The notes beneath the pieces are model-generated. The model ran no database searches, had not been told where the DNA came from, and saw only the letters and a list, made by a program, of their open reading frames with translations. A DNA stretch of 62,459 nucleotides from a virus: IMG/VR virus record IMGVR_UViG_3300030099_001770, positions 1 to 62,459 of that record. One strand, written 5' to 3'. Numbering within the stretch: position 1 is the first letter of the stretch; each line of letters starts with the position of its first letter. Below, piece by piece: positions 31,656 through 57,812 of this stretch. Made by a program: the position numbers and the translations under genes.

Positions 31656-33326
31656 TTATCCAAGTGCAGTAGCCATTGCAATTGAAAAACCAGTTGTTGC
31701 ACCAGCAGAAGTTTGTGTTGTTCCATCTCCAAATTCTATACCATTTGTTCCCACAACAACCTTACCAGAACCATTTGGTGTAAGATTAATATCTCTATTA
31801 GAAGTAGATATTATACTATGAGTAACTACATCTAGGTTGCCTCCAAGTTGTGGAGAACTATCATCTGAAATATTTTGAATACCAGCACCAGCTAATGAAC
31901 CTACAGATGCAAACGCAAGATTACCAGAACCGTCTGTTTTTAGAACTTGTCCAGCGTTACCATCTGCTTGTGGATGTGATAATCCATCAATAATAACTTT
32001 ACCAGAACCATTTGGTGTAATTGCAATATTACCATTTGATGCAGAAACGATTGCGTTGCCATTTACATCTAAGTCACCTCCAAGTTGTGGCGAAGTATCG
32101 TCTACAACATCAGATGATGTTATATCACTTGTAAGTGCAACAGTACCAGATGAGTTGGGTAATGTGATTGTTCTATCTGCTGTTGGGTCTGCAACTGTCA
32201 AAGTTGTTTCGTGTGCATCAGCAGTTGCACCTTCAAAACGAAGTGTGTTTCCAGTATTAAGAAATAAACCATTGTTTTTTATTCTTGCAACAATCTCATT
32301 TGACCCACCAGATACAACTGCAAATTCTAGTAAACCATCTTCACTACCAGCAGATGCATCATCTATCTTACCACTAATCTTTGCGTATGTATGTGAACTA
32401 CCACCATCATCATCACCTTTAAATGCAAGTTGTCCAAGATAGTCTGCATCAGCAGGACTTGAACTATCACGAACTAAATCAATTGTAGGAGCTGCGCTAG
32501 AACCAGCATCAGTAGAGGTAAGTGTAAGATTACCAGTGGTAGAGATGTTACCAGTACCAGTAATATTGTTTGAGTTTAAATCAAGGTTGCCTCCCAGTTG
32601 AGGCGAAGTATCTTCAACAACATTGTTAATAGATACTGCTTGAACTCTTGCAGTTGTGTGATAAAGATTACTAGAACCTTCAGATAAATCATCAGTAGTT
32701 GCAGCTGCTATTCTTGCATCTGCTCTTGCATTTGTAAAATAAAGATTGGAAGAACCCTCTGATAAATCGTCAGTATCGAAACCAAATAAACTTCTTGTAC
32801 CAGTGGTTGCAGCCCAACCCATATTTCCATGTGCAGAACATTGGTAGAATAAAACTGGTGGAGTAGTATCACCAATAACTAATTGTGTATATGCACCAGA
32901 ACTGCCAGGCGTTCCGTTAGTTGTTACGCCTGAAGTATATGAAGTTGATTTATTTACATCAAGATAGAATCTAAAAGGATGGCCTGAGTTACTTGAATCG
33001 CTCTGGTCAAACCGATATGTATTTTTTGGAATAAGTTTTAGATAAGGTGAAAATATACCATTAAGTTTATAACCATTACTAGACCCAACACCGTGATAAG
33101 GGTGTGAACTATCTTTTGTTGCAACAGTAACTTTAAATGTTACAACATTTACATCAAAGTCTGTCGCATAGTGATTTGCAAGTGTAATAACAGTACTACT
33201 ATCATTACGAACATACAGTTTTTTATCAACTGTATTAAGTGCAACTTCACCCTCAATTAAATCAGAGGTATCTGGTATGACTGATATTGTGTTACTGCGT
33301 TTAAGTTTTATTGGTGTTGTAGCCAT
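31656..33326 (-). CDS. Large tail fibre with cupredoxin-like domain
   Basis: 556 aa. N-terminal ATTPIKLKRSNTISVIP ... EGEVALNTVDKKLYVRND is the adaptor seen on phage fibres (Mtd-type start). Residues about 63-172 look like a cupredoxin: GHPFRFYL (His116) and YQCSAHGNMGW (Cys163, His166, Met169). Then come repeats: DDLSEGSSNLY-x-T twice and D-T/S-SPQLGG-N/D-LD three times. It ends GFSIAMATALG, an ending shared with 46582-47040. Probably a long receptor-binding fibre. Confidence 0.8.
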   Translation of the reverse strand: MATTPIKLKRSNTISVIPDTSDLIEGEVALNTVDKKLYVRNDSSTVITLANHYATDFDVNVVTFKVTVATKDSSHPYHGVGSSNGYKLNGIFSPYLKLIPKNTYRFDQSDSSNSGHPFRFYLDVNKSTSYTSGVTTNGTPGSSGAYTQLVIGDTTPPVLFYQCSAHGNMGWAATTGTRSLFGFDTDDLSEGSSNLYFTNARADARIAAATTDDLSEGSSNLYHTTARVQAVSINNVVEDTSPQLGGNLDLNSNNITGTGNISTTGNLTLTSTDAGSSAAPTIDLVRDSSSPADADYLGQLAFKGDDDGGSSHTYAKISGKIDDASAGSEDGLLEFAVVSGGSNEIVARIKNNGLFLNTGNTLRFEGATADAHETTLTVADPTADRTITLPNSSGTVALTSDITSSDVVDDTSPQLGGDLDVNGNAIVSASNGNIAITPNGSGKVIIDGLSHPQADGNAGQVLKTDGSGNLAFASVGSLAGAGIQNISDDSSPQLGGNLDVVTHSIISTSNRDINLTPNGSGKVVVGTNGIEFGDGTTQTSAGATTGFSIAMATALG

Positions 33327-37894: not shown

Positions 37895-38998
37895 TTATAA
37901 CTCCCCATCTGCTTCTATACCAGCATTTGTATTATTATTTCTATCAAGTCTACAACCATCACCAGTAGACCCACCTATACTATTATGGTCTAATCTAAAG
38001 TAACCACAAACTGTACCCATTTCTCTATTTCCAAAAGCAAGTGATGAGGTTGCACTAGCGTCAGAAACCATATTAGCAACTCTCATACCAGTTGTACCAG
38101 AAAGTGTTAATGTTGGTGGAGTTCTCATTTCAACTGATAATTGTTTGAAGAAAAATGTTCTTGTGCCACTTGACCTATGTCCTACTGCGATACCAGTATA
38201 AGCAGAACCAACGCCAGTTTCTCCAGCAAATTGTTGGAAATAGCGTTGACAAAGCGAAAGCTCTTCTGCAAAGGAGCGGTGTTCAAAATCTGAAGCAGTA
38301 TCGCCGACTTCAAGTTGGACGCCTGTAAGATAAAAATTGTTGGCTGTGTCATCAAACACATTCACTTGTCCAACTGCACGTTTGGTTGCATCATTATGCC
38401 AAGTGTTATCTGAATGTGTACCACTATTATAAGTAGCACTAGCAGCTAACCACCATGCAAGTTGTATACCTATACCATTATCATTGTTTAAAGCAGTTGT
38501 TTGATAACCATCAAAAGTCAATGTAACCTTTTGCCAAGTATTAGCAGATGCGATTGTATACTGTCGAGAATTAAAGTAATTAACATCACCATGATATAAT
38601 TCAACAATATGGGTGCCCGTTTTGGGTGACTTTACCCAAAACTGAAGTGTAAGTTTTTTTGCACTAGATGTTCCATAAAGAAGATGTTGTAAATTTTGTC
38701 CTTCTATTTTCTGTCTAATCATAGCATAATGACCAGAACCAGACATATTGCCTGCTGTTGTGACATCAACTTTTTGAGATGATGAAAATCCATTACCAGT
38801 TGGAACATCAGTATCTTGTGAGAGAGTAGAATTTGCTCCCCCTGCGGCTGCAAACTGATACCTATCTGCACCACCATATTTACCAGCGGCGCTCGTCACT
38901 GTGCCTCTCTGAGCCACTTGCATAGCACCATTAATAATAAGATTCCTACGACCACTTACGTTTTCCGTACCTCTTGATTTTACTTTAATTAACGTCAT
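37895..38998 (-). CDS. Carbohydrate-binding-like fibre protein, copy 3
   Basis: 367 aa from the ATG at 38998, which overlaps the stop of the upstream gene (ATGA); an upstream in-frame start at 39016 is possible. It begins TLIKVKSRG ... GRRNLIINGAMQVAQRGT, then a beta-sandwich with LTLQFWVKSPKTGTHIVELY and the conserved LTGVQLEVGDTASDFEHRSFAEELSL motif before CQRYFQ. The family (also 40465 and 43974) resembles carbohydrate-binding modules in phage fibres and appendages. The 57-aa partner gene follows. Confidence 0.8.
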   Translation of the reverse strand: MTLIKVKSRGTENVSGRRNLIINGAMQVAQRGTVTSAAGKYGGADRYQFAAAGGANSTLSQDTDVPTGNGFSSSQKVDVTTAGNMSGSGHYAMIRQKIEGQNLQHLLYGTSSAKKLTLQFWVKSPKTGTHIVELYHGDVNYFNSRQYTIASANTWQKVTLTFDGYQTTALNNDNGIGIQLAWWLAASATYNSGTHSDNTWHNDATKRAVGQVNVFDDTANNFYLTGVQLEVGDTASDFEHRSFAEELSLCQRYFQQFAGETGVGSAYTGIAVGHRSSGTRTFFFKQLSVEMRTPPTLTLSGTTGMRVANMVSDASATSSLAFGNREMGTVCGYFRLDHNSIGGSTGDGCRLDRNNNTNAGIEADGEL

Positions 38999-39387
38999 TC
39001 TGGTTTCTCCGGCCACTTAACATCTTCAAGTGACTTATAGTCTTTTGTAATATCACGAAGTGCTTGTCTGTATGTTTTCCAATCTACATCATTTGATAGA
39101 GTTACATCTCTATTCTGTGTCCAATCTGATTCTGCAAGAATACTATTACGAACTTCTCTTAATTGTTTTAGAGGTTCAGCAGCAACTAACTCATCATACT
39201 TTGCTTTTACTTTTGTCCAAGTAACACCAAAATCATCTGGATTTGTTGACCTAATAATACTTCCACTTTTATCATGACCAGTAATTTTTACAAAACTTTT
39301 TTCAAATTCTGTTTTTGATGTTGGTGTACCTTCTAATTCAAAATTAGAAATTCCTAACTCTATTAATGCTTGACTCATTGTTGCCAT
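38995..39387 (-). CDS. Tail assembly chaperone-like protein, copy 2
   Basis: 130 aa from the ATG at 39387, chosen for its match to the other copies (MATMSQALIELGI versus MATVADALSELGI at 27135) and the GGGG-rich ribosome site. An upstream start would only extend into the fibre gene before it. Ends with TYRQALRDITKDYKSLEDVKWPEKP. The last residues are nearly identical to copy 4 (ITKTYKTLDDVKWPTKP). Lies between two fibre genes. Confidence 0.78.
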   Translation of the reverse strand: MATMSQALIELGISNFELEGTPTSKTEFEKSFVKITGHDKSGSIIRSTNPDDFGVTWTKVKAKYDELVAAEPLKQLREVRNSILAESDWTQNRDVTLSNDVDWKTYRQALRDITKDYKSLEDVKWPEKPE

Positions 39388-39391
39388 GTCT

Positions 39392-40258
39392 TTACCCCAC
39401 AATTTCCATTGCAATTGCTGTTGATGTAGCAGAAGTATCATTATACATAACACCACTAGAACCAGTTGCAGTTCTATATTCAGCTCTATAAGTTATTTCA
39501 CTAGTTGTTGATGGCTCATCTAAGATTGTCATAACAATATTTCTGTGGTCACCTTGACTATTATTTCTACCTATTTCAGTATCAATATTGGTATTTGTAC
39601 CAGTACAAGCAGATGCACTACCACCTATGACTCTTGCAATTCTAGTATGAATATAACCAGCAACATTACCAAGTTTTCCATAGTAACCATTTATTGATAA
39701 AGTAACTAATATTTTACTTGAAGTTGATGTTGGTGTAATTACTACTCCTAAACCCATATCTGTATAATTACTGTTAGCAGCAACATTAAAAGTTGCTGTT
39801 CTTGTATTTTCTTGCACTTGTATAATTGAACCAGTAGGAAATCTTGCATTTGAAACTGTTCCAGTAAGTTTTGTTGCAGCCATACCAGCAATCTTTGCAT
39901 CTGTTACTGCACTTGAAGCAATTTTTGCAGAAGAAACAGCGTTTGTTGCAAGTTGTGTTGTGTTAACTGCACCATCACTTGGTGTTCCAACTAAAAGAGG
40001 TTCACCCATTGCAAGAATAAAATCAATACTATCTGAAGAAGTTAATGCACTTGAAAAAGTTAAAGTACTACCAGATACAGTAAATGAACTGCCCGGCTTC
40101 TGAATAACACCATTTAGTGAAACAAGAAGTTGGTTTGCAGAACTTGGTGTAAAGTTTGCACTATCTTTCTGTAATGTGTAACTTGCAGTCGCAGATGCTG
40201 TCAGAGCATCTAGAACTGAATATCCACCTACCTCTGGTTGTGTTCCTATAAACGGCAT
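39392..40258 (-). CDS. Fibre protein, PFIGTQP start and SKILVT head
   Basis: 288 aa. N-terminal module PFIGTQPEVGGYSVL, a beta domain with LLVSLNGVIQKPGSSF, a stalk (TTQLATNAVSSAKIASSAVTD) and a head with TSTSSKILVTLSING, DEPSTTSEITYRAEY and the AMEIVG end. It combines the N-terminal type of 41843, 43137 and 45182 with the head of 28302 and 36763, direct evidence of module exchange. Confidence 0.78.
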   Translation of the reverse strand: MPFIGTQPEVGGYSVLDALTASATASYTLQKDSANFTPSSANQLLVSLNGVIQKPGSSFTVSGSTLTFSSALTSSDSIDFILAMGEPLLVGTPSDGAVNTTQLATNAVSSAKIASSAVTDAKIAGMAATKLTGTVSNARFPTGSIIQVQENTRTATFNVAANSNYTDMGLGVVITPTSTSSKILVTLSINGYYGKLGNVAGYIHTRIARVIGGSASACTGTNTNIDTEIGRNNSQGDHRNIVMTILDEPSTTSEITYRAEYRTATGSSGVMYNDTSATSTAIAMEIVG

Positions 40259-40277
40259 TATCTAATTTCCTTTATCA

Positions 40278-40285
40278 TATTTATT
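40278..40285 (-). promoter_or_regulatory. Late-type box (AATAAATA) with embedded stop
   Basis: AATAAATA on the minus strand, 20 bp before the 39392-40258 gene; TAA is the stop of the 60-aa gene. Confidence 0.45.
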
Positions 40286-40463
40286 CTGCATCTTTGATGG
40301 TTAATGTGCCTTCATCTTTTCTTTTCATAATTTCTGCATAGTCTGTGTTATCAAGAACTAATGGAACACAACAATTTGAATCATCATTGAATGTTACTAA
40401 TAAACTTACATTTTCTCCATTTTCTGCCTGATATTGTACTGTTTTAATATTTGAAATATTCAT
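40281..40463 (-). CDS. Small partner protein of fibre module, copy 2
   Basis: 60 aa. MNISNIKTVQYQAENGENVS, then VPLVLDNTDYAEIMKRK and a GTLTIKDAE end. Same family as 37718-37891 and 43765-43965, and again directly downstream of a GRRN-type fibre gene (40465-41511). Confidence 0.8.
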   Translation of the reverse strand: MNISNIKTVQYQAENGENVSLLVTFNDDSNCCVPLVLDNTDYAEIMKRKDEGTLTIKDAE

Positions 40464-40464
40464 C

Positions 40465-41511
40465 TTATAACTCCGCTATGAACTCAAGTGTACCAGTACC
40501 ACTAGCCCCATAAACTTGATATTGGTTGTTGGTTGCTATACTTCCACCATGATTAAAAACAAATGACATCGCTTGTGTTCCACCAACATTTGCAACAGAT
40601 GTAACGGCTTGTCCATTTAGTGTAAGACTACTTTGTGCCATAGTCGGTGTCGTTCTCAGTTCTACTGGTAATTGCATAGTGACATAAAATCTGCTTGTCG
40701 TATCTGAATAAGTAGAAACAACAAGTCTTGAATAGGCAGTATCAGAACCAATATTATATCTTTTATAATACCTCTGACAAGCTGCAAGCTCTTCTTCAAA
40801 AGAGCGGTGCTCAAATTCTGTAGATGCACTGCCTACTTCTAGTTGAACACCAGTAACATACCACTCGTTACTTGTATTATCAAAAAGGTTGACTTGATTA
40901 TCTGTAGCAAAAGCTGTGTTTGCTTCCCATGTGTCTGCTGTCTTACCATCATGATTAGTACCAGCAAGTAAAACAAAATTTAAATTAATTCCTTCAGAGT
41001 TGTTTGTGCTATATGTGCCAGTTGTGTCTCCAGAAAAAGTTATTACTTTATGCTCCCAAGTGTCTGCACTACTAATGCTGTACTCTGATGTAATGCTACG
41101 ACCACCTGACGCATTTCTGATAGCTACACAATAAGTTCCAGTTTTATTTGAACGAACCCAAAATGATACAGTAAATGATTTTGCAGAAGATGTTCCAAGA
41201 CCTAACTGATACATTGCATTTCCTTCTATACGTTGTGTGAATGACTGCAAATCAGTTGCTCCAAGACTTGTATCAGCAGTTGTTACATCAACTTTCATTG
41301 AATACAAAAAATTATTGTTAGGAACTGTTGTGCTTTGTGTAATTGTAGACCTTCCATCACCAGCAGCTTGTAGTTGCCATCTGTCTGAAGTGTAGGTGTT
41401 TGATGATATTGAAGTAAAAGACGTACCTCTTTGTGCTACATTCATAGCACCGTTGATTACAAGATTCCTACGACCAGTTGATGAAGACAATTGTATTTTA
41501 CTTAATGGCAT
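40465..41511 (-). CDS. Carbohydrate-binding-like fibre protein, copy 2
   Basis: 348 aa. Starts PLSKIQLSSSTGRRNLVINGAMNVAQRGT, then a beta-sandwich with FTVSFWVRSNKTGTYCVAI and VTGVQLEVGSASTEFEHRSFEEELAACQRY. Very close to copy 3 in the central domain, different at the C-terminal end (TLEFIAEL). Likely an adhesin or appendage for host surface glycans. Confidence 0.8.
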   Translation of the reverse strand: MPLSKIQLSSSTGRRNLVINGAMNVAQRGTSFTSISSNTYTSDRWQLQAAGDGRSTITQSTTVPNNNFLYSMKVDVTTADTSLGATDLQSFTQRIEGNAMYQLGLGTSSAKSFTVSFWVRSNKTGTYCVAIRNASGGRSITSEYSISSADTWEHKVITFSGDTTGTYSTNNSEGINLNFVLLAGTNHDGKTADTWEANTAFATDNQVNLFDNTSNEWYVTGVQLEVGSASTEFEHRSFEEELAACQRYYKRYNIGSDTAYSRLVVSTYSDTTSRFYVTMQLPVELRTTPTMAQSSLTLNGQAVTSVANVGGTQAMSFVFNHGGSIATNNQYQVYGASGTGTLEFIAEL

Positions 41512-41515
41512 CTGT

Positions 41516-41827
41516 TTACTCCGAAGGTGCAGTAGGCCACTTTACATCTTTTAGTGACTTATATGTGTTAGTTATATCACGAAGTTCTTGACGATACTTC
41601 TTCCAATCTGCAAAGTTAGAAACCGAACCACCTTCTTCTCTTTCTTTAATTACAACCCAATCTGAATGTGCAAGTCTTCTATCACGAGCTTCACGAAGAG
41701 ACTGTAAATCTAATGCTGGTTTAGTATTTTTTTCATAATCATTCCACTCAGCCGCAATCTTTTCTTTTTCTGATTGTGATAGAACTTTATCTGGTCTATC
41801 CCCTACATCTTTCCATGTATATGTCAT
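41516..41827 (-). CDS. Tail assembly chaperone-like protein, copy 3
   Basis: 103 aa. MTYTWKDVGDRPDKVLS, then LDLQSLREARDRRLAHSDW and WKKYRQELRDITNTYKSLKDVKWPTAP. The second half is the conserved family core. It differs from copies 1 and 2 in the N-terminal part. It is flanked by fibre genes at 40465 and 41843. Confidence 0.8.
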   Translation of the reverse strand: MTYTWKDVGDRPDKVLSQSEKEKIAAEWNDYEKNTKPALDLQSLREARDRRLAHSDWVVIKEREEGGSVSNFADWKKYRQELRDITNTYKSLKDVKWPTAPSE

Positions 41828-41842
41828 ATTCTTATCCTATCC

Positions 41843-42784
41843 TTAAGCGGTCTTTATTCCATAAAGACTAACTTTTGCATAAGTGTTACCACTTTCTGCT
41901 CTAAATCGTGCTCCATAGGTTCTTCCAGCAGATGTTGGATTACCAGATGCAATTTCTCTATAATAATTAGATGGGTCACGACCACCAGCGTCAGTCATAA
42001 AAATTGTTCTTTTGTCAGAGTCATATGGATGTGCAACTTGAATCCTTGCAGTGATTGGGTCATCTGCCGCTGTACCAAGATTTAAAAGACTTCTCCAAAC
42101 ACCTAAGTTAGTTTCTTTTAAAGCAGTAGTTCCATTACTACCAGATTCATAGATACATCTAAAACGCATGACCTCTGTATTTGATGCAGAAAATGTAGAA
42201 CCATTTTGTGAAGGGTCAACATGGAAAGAAGTTCCACCACCAGCATTATAGGCATAATGAACAATAAACTCATACATATCAAATGTATTGTCAAATGTTA
42301 CACCATTACTTCCATGTAGAAAATCAAGAGAAGAAGCATTTGAACCCTCTAGAGTTTTGATATGTTGATATGCAGAAGTTGCCGCTGGAAGTGTGGTTGT
42401 TCCAGAAAATGTATTTGCACCAGAAAATGTGTGGTTAGTTGAAATTGTTGAAGCAAGTTTTGCACCAGTAACAGCGTTAGCAATAATCTTATCCGTTGAA
42501 ACAGAGTTTGCACCTATACTTGTAGTAACTTGTGCGAAACTTTTATTAATGACATAGAAGTTTAAACCAGCGTCAGGCGCTTCAGACATAGTAAGAGTTG
42601 TACCAGCAGCTGTATACGCTGTGGTAGGTTCTTGTCTTACGTTACCTACAAAGACCTCAAGGTCATTTGCAGTCGCAACTGGATTTGTTAATGTGAAAAC
42701 AGTCGTTGAACCATTTGGGGTAAAAGACTGTTTTGGGAACGAACTTACAAATCCTTGCGTTGGTGTAGTTCCTATGAACGGCAT
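41843..42784 (-). CDS. Fibre protein, PFIGTTP start
   Basis: 313 aa. N-terminal PFIGTTPTQGFVSSFPKQSF, then a fibre domain (NGSTTVFTLTNPVATANDLEVFVG), a stalk (IGANSVSTDKIIANAVTGAK), and a head ending YAKVSLYGIKTA. N-terminal type is shared with 39392 and, less exactly, with 43137 and 45182. Likely a short tail fibre. Confidence 0.75.
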   Translation of the reverse strand: MPFIGTTPTQGFVSSFPKQSFTPNGSTTVFTLTNPVATANDLEVFVGNVRQEPTTAYTAAGTTLTMSEAPDAGLNFYVINKSFAQVTTSIGANSVSTDKIIANAVTGAKLASTISTNHTFSGANTFSGTTTLPAATSAYQHIKTLEGSNASSLDFLHGSNGVTFDNTFDMYEFIVHYAYNAGGGTSFHVDPSQNGSTFSASNTEVMRFRCIYESGSNGTTALKETNLGVWRSLLNLGTAADDPITARIQVAHPYDSDKRTIFMTDAGGRDPSNYYREIASGNPTSAGRTYGARFRAESGNTYAKVSLYGIKTA

Positions 42785-42793
42785 CCTTTACTC

Positions 42794-43129
42794 CTATGTA
42801 ATCTGCATTAAACCAAGAACTGCGTCAAGTGATGAAGCTGCACTTGCTTGAACTTTTAATATATCACTTGCCTCTAAGACATATTTCTGACCAGCGAGAA
42901 CTTCAAGTGTTGTGTTCGCTGGGATTGTTACTTCATTTAGTAACAGTCTTGTTGCGTTACTGTCAGATGCATCAGTGAACTGAACACTTGCAGTTACAGA
43001 GTTATCTGTCTTATTTGTAATTGCAAGTCCTAAAATAATTGCAGTTGTAGATGCTGGACAAGTATACAAAGTTGCAAATGCAGAATGGTTGACTGAAGCG
43101 AGTGATGCGTTTTTAAATGTATTAGCCAT
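42794..43129 (-). CDS. Small virion beta protein
   Basis: 111 aa. ANTFKNASLASVNHSAFATLYTCPA start, AIILGLAITNKT strand, and a conserved end LNEVTIPANTTLEVLAGQKYVLE. The last half is related to the end of 45963-46571 (VKDVTIPASSTLKIVSGQK). Between fibre genes; likely a fibre or baseplate accessory. Confidence 0.7.
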   Translation of the reverse strand: MANTFKNASLASVNHSAFATLYTCPASTTAIILGLAITNKTDNSVTASVQFTDASDSNATRLLLNEVTIPANTTLEVLAGQKYVLEASDILKVQASAASSLDAVLGLMQIT

Positions 43130-43136
43130 ATTCCTT

Positions 43137-43742
43137 TTATCCTAAAGCGATTGCGAGTGCAGTAGCATCATCAGCAGGGTCAAATGTTAATTTTGCTTTT
43201 GTTATTGTACTATCTGCAACAGTATTTATAGTGTTTGCTTGTGATAACTGTATCACTTGTATATTATTAGTACCACTTGGTGGTGCAGAAGTAAATGTCA
43301 AAGTTGCACCATCAACTGTGTATGCAAAACTAGAACCAAACCTCTGGTATACATTATCTACAAATACAATAAAATTGTTTGCACTACTTCCAGAAGGTAC
43401 TTGTGTTAATGTAAATGCAGTCGTTGAACCATCACCATTAAACTCATCAATATGTGGTGATGCAAGTGCAGACACCATTGATACAGTAGAACGACCAAGG
43501 AACACAATAAAAATTCTAGAACCATTACTTGGTGCAGACGCAAAAGTAATCTTTGGTGAACCAGTTGACAAAGAAATATTGTATGAAAACGAGGGTTCTT
43601 GAATAATACCATCCAATGACACAAGAAGTTGTCCTGCTTGTGCAACTGGAAATTCAAGAGTAAATGTCGCAGTTGAACCGTCACCAGTTATTAACTGTTT
43701 GTCAAAACTACCGTGTGATGGCTCTAATCCAATGTAACTCAT
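43137..43742 (-). CDS. Short fibre with two repeat domains
   Basis: 201 aa. Start SYIGLEPSHGSFDKQLI, then two copies of a beta repeat, TGDGSTATFTLEFPVA ... LLVSLDGIIQEPSFSY and NGDGSTTAFTLTQVP ... FIVFVDNVYQRFGSSF. It ends ALAIALG. The same repeat occurs three times in 45182-45961. The small partner gene 43765 lies just upstream. Confidence 0.75.
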   Translation of the reverse strand: MSYIGLEPSHGSFDKQLITGDGSTATFTLEFPVAQAGQLLVSLDGIIQEPSFSYNISLSTGSPKITFASAPSNGSRIFIVFLGRSTVSMVSALASPHIDEFNGDGSTTAFTLTQVPSGSSANNFIVFVDNVYQRFGSSFAYTVDGATLTFTSAPPSGTNNIQVIQLSQANTINTVADSTITKAKLTFDPADDATALAIALG

Positions 43743-43761
43743 TATTGTTTTCCTTTAAACA

Positions 43762-43769
43762 TATTTAGT
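43762..43769 (-). promoter_or_regulatory. Late-type box (ACTAAATA) with embedded stop
   Basis: ACTAAATA on the minus strand, 20 bp before the 43137-43742 gene; TAA is the stop of the 66-aa gene. Confidence 0.45.
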
Positions 43770-43965
43770 CTGCATCTGCGATTGTTAAGTCACCATCAGC
43801 AACCATTTGCATTAGAGTAACGTAATTCATATTTGCTTCATCTGTTGGAACAAATAAATCGTCACCCTCTTTCATAACAACTCTTACATACTCTTTTAAT
43901 TTTTTTGTACCATCCATTTGAACAGTATCACTATATTTTGCTGATTTAATATTACTAGTATCCAT
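43765..43965 (-). CDS. Small partner protein of fibre module, copy 1
   Basis: 66 aa. MDTSNIKSAKYSDTVQMDG, then FVPTDEANMNYVTLMQMV and GDLTIADAD. Same family as 40281 and 37718; downstream of the GRRN fibre gene 43974-45182. Confidence 0.8.
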   Translation of the reverse strand: MDTSNIKSAKYSDTVQMDGTKKLKEYVRVVMKEGDDLFVPTDEANMNYVTLMQMVADGDLTIADAD

Positions 43966-43973
43966 AATAACTC

Positions 43974-45182
43974 CTATAATTCTGCATCAGCGACATAGAA
44001 AGGTGCTGTTGCATCAAAGTGTCCAGCGTTTCCAGCAACTCCACTTACAACTAAATTATACTGAAACCCAACTCTATCTCCATTTTGAGGAACACGATTA
44101 GATATTGACCTAGAAGCACCAGCGACATATAATGCCTGACCAGTACTAGTTAAAGAAACACTTGGTGAAGCTCTCATTTGTACTGGATATCTAACCCAAG
44201 AATACGCATTAGAATTAGTATTACAACTAAAAACTGCACCATATGTATAACTATCACCGCCTTTATTGTAATATCTTTGACAAAGCAATAATGTCTCAGA
44301 TTGACTTAAATTTTCAAATGGAGTAGCAGTAGGGCCATTTTCCAATTGTACATGAGATATTTCAAATGTTCCTGCTTGATTTCCAATACTACCAGTTCTT
44401 GCATTAAAGTCAGAACCAGCACTTAACCAAAATCCAATTTCAAAACTAGAAGAATCTGCTGCTGTACCAATTGTTTTTCCAGAAACACTTCCGAATGTAA
44501 ATGTGTGAGTATATCTTGCCCATGAGGTTGTTAAGGTTTTTGTTGATAATTGAGAACCAGTACCTAAAACTCTACTACTTGGACTACCACCAGTTCCAAA
44601 ATTTTGAATTGGTTCAATAGCAATTTTTAAACCAGCAGATGATGCTTTAGCATAAAATGAAAGTGTCATTTGTTGTGAATTTGAAAGAAGAACATTTTCA
44701 ATATGATGATTAATAGTGGAATATGCACCAGAGGCACTATTTGCAGAGACTACTGCTCTTGCATAAAAAGATGCTTGTGGAACATCAGTCTGACCTACAG
44801 TATGGTCTTGTTTTGAAAACACTGTAGCTGCACTTCCAGCCCATGTTTTCCATCTATCAAGTGACACATATTGACCAGCAACACTAGATGCAGAAGTGGC
44901 CCTTTGTGCTATAGAAAAATCACCATTAATAATATAATTTCTTCTACCATTAAACGCACCACCACCCTTTGCAGTTGTGACAGCACCGTCAACAATATTT
45001 GCAGTTACAACAGAATCGTCAGCAAGTTTTGCAGATGTAACTGCGTCAGCAGCAAGTTTTGCAGTTGTAACTGCGTCAGCAGCAAGTTTTGCAGTTGTAA
45101 TAGAACCATCAGCGACATCTGCGACTGCAATAGTAGATTCGTTATTTAAAAGTTCTGCTAAATTTTTTGCGTTACTAGCCAT
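43974..45182 (-). CDS. Carbohydrate-binding-like fibre protein with repeat stalk, copy 1
   Basis: 402 aa. N-terminal stalk of near-identical 10-residue repeats (LAADAVTTAK, LAADAVTTAK, LAADAVTSAK), then NGRRNYIINGDFSIAQRAT and a carbohydrate-binding-like sandwich (MTLSFYAKASSAGLKIAIE) with the ISHVQLENGPTATPFEN ... LLCQRYYN motif. It is the most divergent of the three. DNA repeats in the stalk are at 45031-45090. Confidence 0.8.
   Translation of the reverse strand: MASNAKNLAELLNNESTIAVADVADGSITTAKLAADAVTTAKLAADAVTSAKLADDSVVTANIVDGAVTTAKGGGAFNGRRNYIINGDFSIAQRATSASSVAGQYVSLDRWKTWAGSAATVFSKQDHTVGQTDVPQASFYARAVVSANSASGAYSTINHHIENVLLSNSQQMTLSFYAKASSAGLKIAIEPIQNFGTGGSPSSRVLGTGSQLSTKTLTTSWARYTHTFTFGSVSGKTIGTAADSSSFEIGFWLSAGSDFNARTGSIGNQAGTFEISHVQLENGPTATPFENLSQSETLLLCQRYYNKGGDSYTYGAVFSCNTNSNAYSWVRYPVQMRASPSVSLTSTGQALYVAGASRSISNRVPQNGDRVGFQYNLVVSGVAGNAGHFDATAPFYVADAEL
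45031..45090. repeat. Tandem 30-bp direct repeat in fibre stalk
   Basis: Two adjacent 30-bp units (45031-45060 and 45061-45090) differ at one position and encode LAADAVTTAK-type stalk repeats. A further diverged copy precedes them. Confidence 0.85.
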
Positions 45183-56834: not shown

Positions 56835-57812
56835 TTATGCAATAGTTACTCCAGTTGAACCTACAACAGCCCAACCACCAGTTGTATTGTACACTAAGAT
56901 TGCACTATCACCAACATCATTGAATGTAATTGTTGAACCGTTTGCAAAAGTAGTTGGAGTAAGAGTTCCATCACCACCATCTGCAACCATAGTAATAATT
57001 TTTAATTGACCGTTTGCACCATTAGCAAGTGTCAATGCGTCTGCACCAGTTGTGGTAACTTGTGTAATTAGTGAAGTGACATCTACTGCACCAGCACCAG
57101 AAAGTGCTTGCACTGTACCAAACATTGCACCCATAGTTTTGTTAGTCATTGTAACTGCGTGGTCTTTGAAGACAAACTCATCATTACCAGTAAGTAATGG
57201 AAGAGTTACAGTTCTATCAGCTGCAAGTTCTGAAGCTGCAAACACATATTGATGGTCAGAAGACGTATCGTTAATCTGTGGTGTTGTCAGAACAGGCGAA
57301 GTTAAAGTCTTGTTAGTAAGAGTATCAGCAGATACTAAACTTACTAATGTAGAGTTTGCACCTTTTGGTAGTAACATTTCATTTGTAACACCCTCACTAT
57401 GTGGTTGTGCTTTGATTTTTTGACCATGAGAGTTGTTACTACAATTTAATTGTATCTGACCAACAGCTCCGTTAGTTGAACCATCACCTCTAAATTCTAC
57501 AATATAGTTATCAGCTGTAATTTCTAATGCACCACCAGTTCCAGTGATTCCAGCAGTTGTAAGTGTAGTGATTGTTTGTGAAGTTGTAGTTCCACCAACG
57601 ACACCGTTAATTGTGGGTGCAGTTAATGTTTTATTTGTTAACGTCTGAGTTCCAGTATTAAGTGTTACTGTATCAGATGTAAGAGTAGAACCATTACCTA
57701 GTTTGGTGTAGATTTCTACAAAGTTATCGTTAATCTTGTCTCCACCAGTTCTGAGGTCATCACCAGTACCGTCATTAGCTGAAGAACCAAGACCAAGTGC
57801 TTGATATGCCAT
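56835..57812 (-). CDS. Fibre-like structural protein
   Basis: 325 aa. AYQALGLGSSANDGTGDDLRTGGDKINDNFVEIYTKLG start, a T-rich stalk (LTNKTLTAPTINGVV ... LTNKTLTSPVLTTPQI) and a C-terminal LKIITMVADGGDGTLTPTTF. This N-terminal type is widespread on marine phage structural proteins. It lies between the gene 7-like and gene 8 sections. A CATAAATA box lies upstream. Confidence 0.75.
   Translation of the reverse strand: MAYQALGLGSSANDGTGDDLRTGGDKINDNFVEIYTKLGNGSTLTSDTVTLNTGTQTLTNKTLTAPTINGVVGGTTTSQTITTLTTAGITGTGGALEITADNYIVEFRGDGSTNGAVGQIQLNCSNNSHGQKIKAQPHSEGVTNEMLLPKGANSTLVSLVSADTLTNKTLTSPVLTTPQINDTSSDHQYVFAASELAADRTVTLPLLTGNDEFVFKDHAVTMTNKTMGAMFGTVQALSGAGAVDVTSLITQVTTTGADALTLANGANGQLKIITMVADGGDGTLTPTTFANGSTITFNDVGDSAILVYNTTGGWAVVGSTGVTIA

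Follow-up and report, generated by a model that had tools for sequence, protein, structure and literature searches.

The stretch of viral DNA analysed here, referred to as the window, comprises 62,459 nucleotides (positions 1 to 62,459 of the IMG/VR record IMGVR_UViG_3300030099_001770), derives from a marine phage and encodes a tail-fibre protein of 556 amino acids, which is matched by the PHROGs tail fibre/baseplate families phrog_30742 (E 3e-37), phrog_677 and phrog_693 and whose closest named relatives are those of Methylophilales phage Melnitz and Pelagibacter phage Mosig. The chain can be divided into three parts (Table 1). Residues 1-55 probably represent an attachment segment, and residues 3-84 match the baseplate wedge family phrog_32294. 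This segment is followed by a cupredoxin-like domain and by the remainder of the fibre stalk, which contains the repeats SSNLYFTNARADARI / SSNLYHTTARVQAV and DTSPQLGGNLD and ends with the C-terminus GFSIAMATALG. Elsewhere in the window (37895-45182), three neighbouring proteins related to the tail-fibre family phrog_4492 are encoded on the minus strand at 37895-39016, 40465-41511 and 43974-45182, which suggests an array of fibre paralogues.

Table 1. Positions of the fibre gene, its segments, the codons of the putative metal ligands and the connector gene within the window.
Feature	Position	Strand	Basis or remark
Tail-fibre gene, 556 aa	31656..33326	(-)	ORF call; carries the cupredoxin-like domain
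N-terminal segment, residues 1-55, GEVALNTVDKKLYV	33162..33326	(-)	Sequence
Cupredoxin-like domain, residues 56-177	32796..33161	(-)	AlphaFold2 model, PDB fold matches, conservation in marine phages
Rest of fibre stalk, residues 178-556	31659..32795	(-)	Sequence, PHROGs matches
His116, first putative metal ligand	32979..32981	(-)	Codon CAT; followed by the invariant Pro117
Cys163, putative thiolate ligand	32838..32840	(-)	Codon TGT
His166, putative ligand	32829..32831	(-)	Codon CAT
Met169, putative axial ligand	32820..32822	(-)	Codon ATG; amicyanin spacing
phrog_677-type connector, domain absent	56835..57812	(-)	Matches only positions 1-298 of 412 of phrog_677

A preliminary description of the locus had assigned a blue-copper domain to residues 63-172 of the fibre, which the mapping of the open reading frame places exactly at 32811-33140 of the minus strand, and reading of the codons finds all four proposed ligands, His116, Cys163, His166 and Met169, where they had been claimed. 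Cys163 is the sole cysteine of the fibre chain, so that an intrachain disulfide is ruled out, and Met169 is one of only two internal methionines. The composite pattern H-x(34-70)-C-x2-H-x2-M is present in a single copy within the whole window; shuffling the fibre protein 200,000 times produced it in 9 cases, so that it is no chance occurrence. The C-x2-H-x2-M spacing had been likened to that of both amicyanin and pseudoazurin; the former comparison holds and the latter does not, since in pseudoazurin, as in plastocyanin, the ligand methionine lies two residues beyond the amicyanin position. The plastocyanins recovered in the searches show C-x2-H-x4-M.

The structure of the fibre domain was predicted with AlphaFold2 from an alignment of 22 viral sequences and without templates (pLDDT 88.8, pTM 0.83). 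Comparison of the model with known cupredoxins, which the preliminary description had proposed as a check, gave the following result: nearly all of the 50 best fold matches in the PDB are cupredoxins or proteins made of cupredoxin domains, including rusticyanin, plastocyanin, amicyanin, multicopper oxidases and CuNiR as well as pseudoazurin, in one case engineered with an amicyanin loop. The best E-value among these matches is 9.7e-4 and their probabilities reach 1.00, but the TM-scores are moderate (0.38-0.58), and the model contains 7 strands of at least three residues; the assignment is therefore made at the level of the fold class, and the name cupredoxin-like is used throughout. In domain numbering, His61 (fibre His116) is located directly ahead of strand 63-66, Cys108 (Cys163) closes the penultimate strand 103-108, and His111 and Met114 (His166 and Met169) lie in the loop ahead of the last strand 116-119, an arrangement which in the predicted structure is the ligand order of cupredoxins. 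A second model, calculated for the connector domain described below from a separate alignment (A3), was poor (pLDDT 60) and was left out of the fold search. Close fold matches in the BFVD include A0A481Z6J5, A0A481YWX9 and others, predicted 'beta-sandwich proteins' of deep-sea relatives of Pithovirus and Marseillevirus (E about 1e-8, identity 18-29%).

Three seeds with masked ligand positions were used to search IMG/VR, so that the presence of the ligands could not decide which domains were recovered; a hand-written consensus query served solely to spot matches. The masked search returned 152 distinct domains, and the two histidines, the cysteine and the methionine are retained in every one of them. 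Together with the window domain, pairwise identities range from 20 to 99% with a median of 50%, and merely eight columns are invariant across the 153 sequences, namely F106, H116, P117, L159, Y161, C163, H166 and M169, so that the ligands make up four of the eight. The spacing of the C-x2-H-x2-M segment (3 and 3) is fixed in 153/153, whereas the distance from the first histidine to the cysteine amounts to 43, 46, 47 or 50 residues; the site has thus been retained while the loops around it changed.

At the sequence level the relationship to cupredoxins is less direct. When a diverse phage set is aligned by hhalign with bacterial proteins of the plastocyanin and amicyanin types, the result is 81% (E 1e-5) and the four ligands are in register, as compared to about 3% or less for reversed and shuffled controls, the C..H..M motif being present on both sides by selection. 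If everything from the cysteine onward is cut, about 1% remains, no more than the reversed control gives, with the register unchanged. As the score collapses without the Cys-His-Met end, common descent is not proved by sequence alone, and the fold provides independent support. No Pfam model reaches its curated cut-off, nor does NCBIfam yield a copper domain above that level: PF00127 (Copper-bind) finds neither the window fibre nor the record of the window phage itself, the best-scoring relative, P-SCSP2, reaches E 0.034 and 15.0 bits against a cut-off of 21.2, so that the domain is not counted as a PF00127 member, and TIGR02657 (amicyanin) matches the syn9-type connector domain with E 0.056. 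With the window domain as query, no PDB sequence was matched. Profile searches of the PDB gave only weak matches, which besides unrelated chains were multicopper oxidase, pseudoazurin and CuNiR. These PF00127, TIGR02657 and PDB profile similarities may be read as weak pointers toward cupredoxins.

Two differences are consistently observed in the second shell of the putative metal site. The residue after the first histidine is proline in 153/153 phage domains, as opposed to asparagine, threonine or serine in 19/19 comparison cupredoxins, Asn/Ser/Thr at this position being the usual, though not strictly defining, second shell of a type-1 site. Conversely, the second residue after the cysteine is proline in most comparison cupredoxins, whereas the eight commonest residues of the phage domains, which account for 152 of the 153, do not include proline. 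At both positions the backbone NH can donate a hydrogen bond to the cysteine sulphur, and the phage site may have swapped the side from which this bond is donated. Of the original claim, the cupredoxin-like fold (by the model) and the intact ligand set are supported; the second shell departs from that of classical type-1 sites.

A ligand-free sister family provides a further comparison. The tail protein phrog_693, present in S-IOM18, ACG-2014b, S-RIM2 and P-RSM1, is recognisable by sequence as the same domain (YRFDVSDSSMSG...AYVEYDF), and the S-IOM18 fibre was also recovered by fold match (rank 50). In all 28 distinct sequences read from this family cysteine is missing, no methionine is found within the last 25 residues, and the His-Pro pair is replaced. 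The fold is kept in both the window domain and phrog_693, the latter being without all four ligands, presumably by loss rather than gain, and phrog_693 constitutes a natural negative control. The species of S-RIM2 and ACG-2014b carry both phrog_693 and a ligand-bearing connector. That the four residues are present or absent together points to a single metal site, most likely one of type-1-like copper. Alternatively, the domain might be an adhesion-type beta-sandwich that binds no metal and keeps the histidines, cysteine and methionine for packing or assembly alone, as could be argued from the putative nature of metal binding, from the silence of Pfam and NCBIfam above their cut-offs, from the weak homology outside the loop and from the evident survival of the fold without these residues in phrog_693. 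We regard this as improbable, since neither their retention in 152/152 domains at fixed spacing nor their joint absence from a family that keeps the fold is expected for independent packing residues; furthermore, the top PDB matches are nearly all copper proteins, and with a single cysteine an intrachain disulfide is excluded.

Taken together, residues 56-177 are best described as a cupredoxin-like beta-sandwich with one putative mononuclear His-Cys-His-Met metal site, most likely a type-1-like one for copper with amicyanin spacing, in which the metal would be mainly structural, a reading which as a whole we consider reasonably probable. Its parts differ in strength: that the domain binds a metal is likely, and from the ligand set the putative metal is most likely copper and not zinc or iron, while a mainly structural role of the bound metal is put forward tentatively, with a chance somewhat short of even. 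The moderate TM-scores, the loop-dependent profile similarity, the proline after the first histidine and a copper-poor cytosol count against this explanation.

The preliminary description had treated the domain as an oddity of one fibre. Instead the module is widespread, marine phages having it in fibres as well as in baseplate connectors. A search of other phages, which at the outset had been proposed for the loop, found the domain in hundreds of marine phage records: the window seed matched 310 GenBank phage records, some of them ligand-free phrog_693 copies, and the connector seed 325, the two sets overlapping, and there were hundreds of IMG/VR contigs as well. In cyanomyoviruses such as syn9 and ACG-2014d the domain forms the C-terminus of the baseplate wedge/tail fibre connector phrog_677 (about positions 305-409 of 412), and in podoviruses it is part of the fibres of P-GSP1, P-SCSP2, HTVC028P and Baldr; other fibre proteins contain it as well. 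Fibre and connector domains are homologous by hhalign with 97.6% probability (E 4.4e-12) and all ligands matched, and by hmmscan fibre residues 55-170 correspond to phrog_677 positions 299-403. Whereas the domain terminates the connector in cyanomyoviruses, the window phage has it in the fibre and possesses a connector without it, so that different tail proteins bear the module in different phages. The connector gene of the window phage stops where the cupredoxin-like domain of its relatives begins, and the fibre carries the domain instead.

Profile searches also recovered cellular copies with the ligand set, in cyanobacterial DUF4214 proteins, some of which have HQ in place of HP, and, in flavobacteria, in a secreted protein whose stalk is collagen-like; one flavobacterial copy (CTIHPGTM) has an extra residue between histidine and methionine. 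With these cellular copies the module looks like a general, extracellular one. Sub-threshold similarity to PF25489 (At5g54830-like, a plant protein) was seen for 22 of 24 connector domains, and by this sequence resemblance PF25489 is a possible distant eukaryotic relative; a search for it in 119 bacterial genomes gave no matches, the controls being equally silent.

The occurrence of the domain in fibres and connectors invites a receptor-side role, in which the copper-loaded domain would aid docking to copper-handling proteins of the host surface in the manner of a copper Ferrojan Horse; for marine phages, iron-loaded fibre tips have been proposed as a docking device (PMC11705849). Such a role appears unlikely. 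In the window fibre the domain lies towards the N-terminus and not at the distal tip, it is far more conserved than host-specific tips, it is common to phages infecting Synechococcus, Prochlorococcus, Pelagibacter and Methylophilales, and bacterial surface proteins contain close homologues. Its N-terminal position here, its variable positions elsewhere and the fact that connectors have it speak more for a stabilised module complete in itself than for a receptor tip; that it is found in secreted stalk proteins of bacteria, besides connectors and fibres, is in keeping with a stabilised module that stands alone.

In terms of the structural reading, the domain would be a self-contained unit, used by marine phages in their fibres and in their baseplate connectors. 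Phage proteins fold in the cytosol, which is poor in free copper, so that the metal would probably be acquired in the envelope or once the cell has lysed. Once the virion has left the cytoplasm, the bound metal would lock the domain beside the N-terminal segment of the fibre and protect the lone cysteine. The trimers of T4 gp9 and gp10 occupy six positions; if trimers of the connector fill six positions in the same way, the connector alone would contribute about 18 sites to a cyanomyovirus virion. A redox role has also been considered, with a Cu(I)/Cu(II) switch acting as redox-sensing latch or as electron acceptor at the host surface. In its favour, electron-transfer copper proteins have this ligand set and the axial methionine never varies; on the other hand, neither a partner nor an electron pathway is evident, the fibre has no obvious donor or acceptor, and the second-shell residues are unlike those of classical type-1 sites, which makes a redox function quite improbable.

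The first reading of the locus was thus largely right but too narrow, the type-1 copper site itself being putative. As hundreds of ocean phages have the domain in their tails, many virions may carry copper, and a loaded site would mean that some of the ocean's most abundant phages have a redox-type copper centre in their tail machinery. By extension, copper might be a regular cofactor of the tails of marine T4-like phages and podophages, with tens of type-1-like sites per virion serving as stability lock or as redox or copper sensor for attachment, the phage pool acting as a ligand of seawater copper and the copper supply affecting infection; this wider proposal is rather doubtful. A literature search that had subscription journals outside its scope, with priority accordingly uncertain, found no paper linking cupredoxins, blue copper or plastocyanin to phage tails or cyanophages, and the report on the cryo-EM structure of P-SCSP1u makes no mention of a cupredoxin or plastocyanin fold (PMC10575957). 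The phage-tail metals discussed so far are iron in HxH motifs (PMC11705849), and the idea of copper is now directly testable.

Compared with amicyanin, pseudoazurin and plastocyanin (PF00127, TIGR02657), the phage domain shares the fold class, according to the model, and the four ligands in register, as well as a GxTYxF strand ahead of the first histidine and a C-terminal strand after the methionine; the C-x2-H-x2-M spacing is shared with amicyanin. In contrast to these soluble electron carriers, it is inserted in a multidomain virion protein, has proline after the first histidine and none two residues after the cysteine, and reaches a significant profile similarity only when the ligand loop is included. 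A metal-bearing fibre for comparison is the long tail fibre gp37 of T4 with its HxH iron sites, together with the Ferrojan Horse hypothesis, the metal ions of tail fibres, proposed or shown, having been discussed as trace-metal ligands in the ocean (PMC11705849). In gp37, iron is bound octahedrally by HxH motifs along a trimeric needle, whereas the fibre of the window phage presents a putative thiolate site within a beta-sandwich.
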